NCBI GenBank assembly: GCA_020444545.1
Contig: JAHLKT010000004.1
Span: 186,001 to 250,000, forward strand
Direction of reading: 5' to 3'
DNA from: Desulfarculaceae bacterium
GTDB taxonomy: Bacteria > Desulfobacterota > Desulfarculia > Desulfarculales > Desulfarculaceae
Length of the DNA stretch: 64,000 nucleotides
The number at the start of each line of letters is the position of its first letter. Positions within the stretch are counted from its first letter, which is position 1. A model generated the notes under the pieces. That model made no database searches, had not been told where the DNA came from, and saw only the letters and a list, made by a program, of their open reading frames with translations. Positions 3,850-4,664 of the stretch are shown here, piece after piece. The position numbers and the translations under genes were made by a program.

Positions 3850-4611
3850 ATGAGAATTATTAGGTTTGTCATAGTGTTGGCTGTGACCATGCTGCTGCTG
3901 GGCAGCGGATCGGCCATGGCCGACACCATGAACGTGGCCTATCGAGGCAACAGCAACGTGCAGGTATGGGTTGACGGTCAGTCGCGCAACGCCATCACTG
4001 CCGAGTTTTACACGCCCACCACCTATCAGGACGCAATCTGGTTCGGCTACTGCGTGGACCCGCTGCAGAACTTCAAGAACCCCATCACCCCGGGCGACCC
4101 CAACCTGTGGTCCGGGCCGGAGATCAGCCCGCCGGTGACCAACTACGACTGGCGCGAGGTGGCCTGGCTCATGGAGAACTACGCTCCGGGCGCGGACTGG
4201 GTGAGCGACCCCGGCTCGGTGAACTACGGCTCGCCCGCGGTGAAGCTGGCCATCCAGGCAGTGCAGTTGGCCATCTGGGAGGTGGTGCTGGATCACTCCA
4301 CCACCTACACCTCGGGCAGCGTCACTGACACCAACAGCCGCTTCTACACCCTTAGCGGCACGACCGCGGCCATGGCCGGCAGCTACCTGGTGGCCCTGAG
4401 CGAGTACAAGACCGCCAACAACGGCAACATCTCGCTCACCGGACAGTACCTGATCAATGACCAGAACGACCGCCAGGACCTGACCATGGGCACCGGCGGC
4501 GCGGCGGGCACCCCGGAGCCGGCCACCATGCTGCTCATGGGCAGCGCTTTGGCCGCGGGCGCGGGCTTCTTCCGCCGCCGCCGCAAGAGAAGCGCCAAGG
4601 CCCCCGCCTAG
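3850..4611 (+). CDS. PEP-CTERM surface protein with a thioester-domain-like region
   Basis: A 253-residue exported protein. The signal peptide is residues 1-24 (cleavage after SAMA). The C-terminus has a PEP motif (222-224), a hydrophobic helix and an Arg/Lys tail, the sorting signal processed by exosortase/archaeosortase-type systems. In between, GYCVD (C68), VAWLMEN (104-110) and VQLAIW (Q139) match the order and spacing style of class I thioester domains, where a Cys and the Gln of TQxAIW form an internal bond that reacts with host or matrix nucleophiles. ATG 3850 has GAGGG upstream. It is monocistronic, followed by a strong terminator. No exosortase gene is in the window. Confidence 0.8.
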   Translation: MRIIRFVIVLAVTMLLLGSGSAMADTMNVAYRGNSNVQVWVDGQSRNAITAEFYTPTTYQDAIWFGYCVDPLQNFKNPITPGDPNLWSGPEISPPVTNYDWREVAWLMENYAPGADWVSDPGSVNYGSPAVKLAIQAVQLAIWEVVLDHSTTYTSGSVTDTNSRFYTLSGTTAAMAGSYLVALSEYKTANNGNISLTGQYLINDQNDRQDLTMGTGGAAGTPEPATMLLMGSALAAGAGFFRRRRKRSAKAPA

Positions 4612-4629: not shown

Positions 4630-4664
4630 AAGGCCCCGCCGCATCGCGCGGCGGGGCCTTTTGC
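4630..4664. terminator. Bidirectional Rho-independent terminator
   Basis: A perfect 13-bp stem (4630-4642 with 4648-4660) with a 5-base ATCGC loop. It is followed on plus by TTTTGCTTT and on minus by TTATTATTT. It lies between two convergent genes and probably ends both transcripts. Confidence 0.85.

Follow-up and report, generated by a model that had tools for sequence, protein, structure and literature searches.

The gene at 3850-4611 of the window (the whole 64,000-nucleotide stretch that was analysed) encodes a 253-aa protein that, judged by sequence and predicted fold, is a thioester domain (TED) joined to a Gram-negative exosortase signal. We consider it likely that this is an exported, stalkless TED, in which a predicted Cys68-Gln209 thioester and an exosortase-processed tail would serve covalent fixing outside the inner membrane. 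The gene, the domain, its predicted fold, the conservation of its key residues, the sorting signal and the co-occurrence with exosortase are established here. The features of the locus are as follows:

3850-4611, + strand: coding sequence of the 253-aa TED/PEP-CTERM protein, stop codon at 4609-4611 (orthologues with the same neighbours; dN/dS)
3850-3921, + strand: N-terminal signal peptide, residues 1-24, with AxA before D25 (read by eye)
3922-4491, + strand: thioester domain, about residues 25-214 (PF08341 on 67-160; AlphaFold2 model; fold match to seven TED entries)
4051-4053, + strand: codon of Cys68 in YCVD ([YFL]C-Phi-zeta motif), the predicted thioester Cys (conservation in two sets)
4258-4284, + strand: motif AVQLAIWEV of the core helix (TQxx-Phi-W type), whose Gln is not predicted to form the bond (conservation; PMC4450167)
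4264-4266, + strand: codon of Q139 within the core-helix motif
4474-4476, + strand: codon of Gln209 in RQDLTM (Phi-Q-zeta-Phi-Phi type), the predicted thioester Gln (conservation; structural register with CpTIE and SfbI)
4510-4587, + strand: PEP-CTERM sorting signal, residues 221-246 (TIGR02595, PF07589)
4630-4660, + strand: terminator-like hairpin in the gap that separates the TED gene from its convergent downstream neighbour (13 pairs, T-rich tail)

The open reading frame is a real gene. It lies between a gene for a CheW/CZB protein and a convergent gene for a rhodanese/rubrerythrin protein. Its upstream neighbours are kept at the loci of four related genomes, and its downstream neighbour in three of the four, the contig of the fourth ending there. 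Five orthologues give pairwise dN/dS values of 0.17-0.38. EPS genes were looked for as a conserved neighbourhood of the TED gene and were not found, the syntenic neighbours being the CheW/CZB and rhodanese/rubrerythrin genes. A sigma-70 scan of the TED-gene region found no promoter, and the hairpin at 4630-4660 is a weakly supported terminator candidate, since the region holds two terminator-like sites against 0.9 in shuffles. An antisense frame, open over most of the gene, was discounted as a high-G+C shadow with no support as a gene of its own.

The original prediction had placed C68 in GYCVD, the motif VAWLMEN, Q139 in VQLAIW and a C-terminal PEP-CTERM signal in this frame, and all of them lie where it put them. 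Its reading of a TED signature goes beyond chance, as judged by the TED profile, by a PEP-CTERM signal over cut-off in both Pfam and NCBIfam, and by the kept neighbours and dN/dS just described. Searched alone, the protein matches PF08341 over residues 67-160 with 20.6 bits (E 6e-4; Pfam cut-off 22), and in the genome-wide search with the same profile it reaches 22.0 bits and is flagged over the cut-off. With 33.5 and 33.0 bits, two paralogues in this genome pass the cut-off, and both have a signal peptide (read by eye) and a PEP-CTERM end. The match is thus borderline for the window protein and clear for its family. The genome's second TED gene (L002, 317-1264, - strand) is adjoined, in divergent orientation, by the gene for a further PEP-CTERM protein. 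In Pfam at E<=0.1, TED is found in 48 of 55 relatives and PEP-CTERM in 45 of 55; several other relatives end in VPLPA- or VPDSG-type signals. At E<=1e-3 the window protein matches only TED and PEP-CTERM in Pfam. Against solved structures, phmmer with the single sequence returned only an unrelated tail fibre (E 0.083), and a profile search aligned the Cys and helix motifs with SaTIE-TED at E 0.58, which is too weak alone.

The comparison of a predicted structure with TEDs, which the original prediction had named as a check, bears out the domain assignment. The AlphaFold2 model covers residues 24-216, was built with 35 relatives and has a mean pLDDT of 88.8 and a pTM of 0.89. When it was compared with 734 chains, the seven best entries were all TEDs (Z 12.1-8.6) and the eighth was unrelated (Z 3.0). 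Foldseek alone gave nothing at E<=0.001, its best match being Cpa 4c0z at E 0.019. The model of a planctomycete relative (L067; pLDDT 83.5) matched 12 rows at Z 13.2-8.0, of which 11 are entries that contain a TED and one is the streptococcal adhesin FNE, with the next at 3.9; the two models are not independent, because the same 36 sequences underlie both. In the secondary structure of the window model, C68 stands at the end of a strand, Q139 within a helix and Q209 just before the last strand.

The original prediction paired C68 with Q139 and overlooked the downstream motif around Q209. The window protein carries, in order, YCVD, AVQLAIWEVV and RQDLTM, with 141 residues between C68 and Q209. 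In the account of Walden 2015 (PMC4450167), the bond-forming Gln of TEDs lies in a downstream beta motif, and the thioester can form without the Gln of the helix motif, which hydrogen-bonds the Cys backbone. The pairs published there are SfbI Cys109-Gln261, PnTIE Cys94-Gln247 and CpTIE Cys138-Gln267, with spacings of 129-153, and the Phi-Q-zeta-Phi-Phi motif of the Gln is described there as weak (PMC4450167). The first position of this motif in RQDLTM is R, which is not hydrophobic. In Cpa, we take Gln575 and Gln211 to be the bond formers. The motif order and the spacing, set against the published pairs, therefore mark Q139 as the helix-motif Gln and Q209 as the equivalent of the bond former. 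The models agree: the Q209 equivalent falls on CpTIE Gln267 in both and on SfbI Gln261 in the L067 model, a register that was obtained by counting back from the last aligned residue and holds only if the last 3 or 7 aligned residues are free of gaps. For SaTIE 6fx6 the register differs by one residue between the two models (218 vs 219). From sequence and models, Q209 is likelier than Q139 to be the thioester Gln.

The C68-Q139 pair could still draw on the invariance of Q139, which is seen in every relative of both sets described below, and on the contact that the equivalent Gln makes with the Cys backbone in solved TEDs as reported (PMC4450167). The distance between C68 and Q139 in the model does not discriminate, because the helix Gln adjoins the Cys in solved TEDs anyway. 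As the bond former of the TEDs studied is the beta-motif Gln and the helix Gln is dispensable according to the same source (PMC4450167), as Q209 takes the bond-former place in the models, and as the scan patterns themselves account for part of the invariance seen at C68 and Q139, we find the original pairing hardly credible.

Conservation points to the same residues. Among 55 non-redundant relatives, the Cys column and the helix Gln (Q139) and Trp (W143) are kept in 55/55. For C68 and Q139, part of this invariance follows from the genome scan itself, whose patterns were taken from the Cys and helix motifs. None of these patterns covered Q209; Gln stands in its column in 52 of the 53 rows that reach it, the exception being Glu in L032. 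For this count L026 and L047 were left out, as the contig or locus ends before Q209. The non-redundant set was reached by removing 11 genome-scan loci as repeats or, for L045, as a fragment; a 5'-cut locus (L031), one of other architecture (L033) and one with a broken frame (L035) were never in it. Conservation of 90% or more, with 50 or more rows present, is reached by only ten of the 253 columns, C68, Q139, W143 and Q209 among them, and the median column is at 35%. In a second set of 16 proteins, which came from profile searches and leaves out four that had been counted before, 15/16 have the Cys, 16/16 the helix Gln and 16/16 Q209. The exception, L088 (G553:C50, planctomycete sample), has Asp at the Cys column and keeps both Gln. 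L032 (G017:C60), at the same locus as L044, keeps the Cys and helix motif and has no Gln strand ahead of its PEP motif, so that it could be inactive or serve as a natural control.

A domain of this fold might no longer form or use a thioester, with C68 and Q209 kept for packing or another role in a non-covalent matrix component. The losses of Cys in L088 and of Gln in L032, with the other motifs kept, speak for such a protein, as does the consideration that a matrix protein would not need reactivity. Against it, C68 and Q209 are among the few near-invariant columns of a very divergent family. The thioester is moreover reported to be negligible for stability and not a structural determinant (PMC6194298, PMC4450167), so conservation of both residues is not what packing alone would lead one to expect. 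We regard an inactive domain as unlikely. C68 is also the sole cysteine of the protein, which makes intermolecular use possible: it could form a disulphide or be otherwise modified, the domain being a dimer or part of a lattice in a coat. This reading, which appears highly improbable, leaves the conserved Q209 and the TED fold unexplained, and the motif around the Cys, [YFL]C-Phi-zeta, is that of TEDs. A reactive Cys68-Gln209 pair is the reading retained here.

The C-terminal signal scores 24.8 bits with TIGR02595 (NCBIfam cut-off 16) and 22.9 bits with PF07589 (Pfam cut-off 20.7). As in exosortase substrates, the protein has a PEP motif, a hydrophobic stretch and a basic tail, and its genome encodes an exosortase. 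This single exosortase (201.7 bits, cut-off 105.55) lies within an EPS operon about 95 kb from the TED gene. Its surroundings encode an EpsY-like export protein and a chain-length determinant, the XrtA-associated ATPase and kinase, an O-ligase-like protein, a TPR protein and an EpsB_2 glycosyltransferase, the last of which scores over its cut-off; most of these neighbours score below the equivalog cut-offs. The operon also encodes a 918-aa protein that is weakly HepB (heparin lyase)-like, with 61 bits against a cut-off of 600 (L100, 13727-16480, + strand). Within the order, an exosortase is present in 15/15 TED-bearing genomes, a TED in 0/4 exosortase-less genomes, and two genomes have an exosortase and no TED (Fisher p 0.0025, with relatedness ignored and one of the four exosortase-less genomes only 54% complete). 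One genome of the same genus (G004, a single contig, 98% complete) lacks both exosortase and TED, which the other genomes of the genus possess.

The original prediction held the combination of a TED with a Gram-negative exosortase signal to be notable. The combination is borne out, yet it is no one-off: TEDs with PEP-CTERM-type tags recur in six diderm phyla. A scan of genome contigs returned 39 loci. Where the record title names a group, it puts the locus in Desulfobacterota, Planctomycetota, Verrucomicrobiota, Armatimonadota, Acidobacteriota or Pseudomonadota; the assignment of titles to phyla is ours, and some titles read only 'bacterium'. Among viral contigs, 14 pattern matches included no relative. 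At E<=0.01, PF08341 is found in 14/21 genomes of the order and in 12/395 sampled genomes of the phylum; these counts are lower bounds, because many distant members were missed. The same profile found a match in only 4/9 genomes known to hold a member, and an alignment profile was used later. This family profile finds members in 15/21 genomes of the order, in 8/199 sampled Planctomycetota (the phylum of L067) and in 3/299 sampled Pseudomonadota (the phylum of L075), the centre genome included in each of the two samples. One relative (L046) comes from the cultured Dethiosulfatarculus sandiegensis, and Tautonia sociabilis and Albibacillus kandeliae also carry a TED gene. Paired TED/PEP-CTERM genes, with starts about 1-2.5 kb apart, occur in the order of the window (G012:C54, G013:C72, G017:C112) and in the planctomycete sample (G416:C7, G448:C2, G509:C1, G586:C1). 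In another member of the phylum, a TED of 39.3 bits is followed by long cysteine-rich DGN-type repeats in a stalk-like architecture (L033, G188:C7:40173-40448).

A mechanism can be proposed from these elements. Going by its signals, the protein would be exported by Sec, and its PEP-CTERM tail would be processed by the exosortase of the EPS operon. Cys68 and Gln209, predicted to lie side by side in the fold, would form an internal thioester spontaneously with loss of ammonia, as the domain suggests. By analogy with SfbI and Cpa, a nucleophile outside the inner membrane, probably an amine, would then attack the thioester. Were this nucleophile on an exopolysaccharide, another envelope protein or a surface, the protein would be fixed there covalently. 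The thioester bond, its target and a role in the EPS matrix are what we infer. Across the relatives, the Gln lies 5-19 residues (median 12) ahead of the PEP motif, which leaves no stalk, unlike in Gram-positive TIE proteins. The absence of a stalk suggests action near the acceptor to which exosortase would attach or release the protein, which is perhaps a cross-linker between two partners. In a tentative extension, which we hold possible and on balance doubtful, PEP-CTERM TEDs would be two-ended covalent staples: one partner would be attached to the C-terminus by exosortase and a second by the thioester just upstream, so that the EPS coat is cross-linked to proteins, cells or surfaces. If so, a covalent matrix-building system would be common to several Gram-negative phyla.

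Walden 2015 surveyed TEDs and found them in Gram-positive bacteria alone (PMC4450167), and Monzon 2021 (PMC8286594) reports them in Firmicutes and many Actinobacteria. The roles of exosortase substrates and their binding to exopolysaccharide are presented as an open question in two reports (PMC9850573, PMC12188702). In searches of an open-licence library, no paper was found that describes a TED combined with PEP-CTERM. The TED family itself is known and most members are detectable with Pfam; as far as our searches reach, the diderm, stalkless, exosortase-linked architecture is new. A reactive thioester beside a PEP-CTERM signal, if true, would answer this question directly, in chemical terms, for one family of exosortase substrates, and would mean that covalent adhesion chemistry reaches environmental diderm bacteria as well.

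Three known systems can be compared with the window protein. The floc-forming protein PepA, as described (PMC9850573), likewise has a signal peptide and PEP-CTERM, with an EPS operon encoding the exosortase. It belongs to a different family, the window protein scoring 20.6 against a cut-off of 80 with floc_PepA (NCBIfam), and this from its C-terminal part. The class II TEDs reported (BaTIE, SaTIE, EfmTIE86; PMC6194298) give the best Z-scores, 10.4-12.1, and share their core with the window model. The model's secondary structure shows no sign of their large beta-sandwich insertion before the Gln, nor of an N-terminal helix, and the spacing of Cys71 and Gln266 given for BaTIE is 195 (PMC6194298) vs 141 here. 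The class I TEDs (SfbI, Cpa, CpTIE), with Z 8.6-10.1, share the Cys and core-helix motifs as defined in PMC4450167, have their beta-motif Gln at the same structural place as Q209, and in the three solved domains given there show a Cys-Gln spacing of 129-153 (PMC4450167), within which the 141 of the window protein falls. Neither the isopeptide/ester stalk nor the LPXTG anchor by which TIE proteins are recognised is present in the 253-aa protein. Unlike the Gram-positive class I TED adhesins, it is found in a diderm host and has no such stalk; PEP-CTERM replaces LPXTG, and the sorting signal follows directly on the Gln strand.
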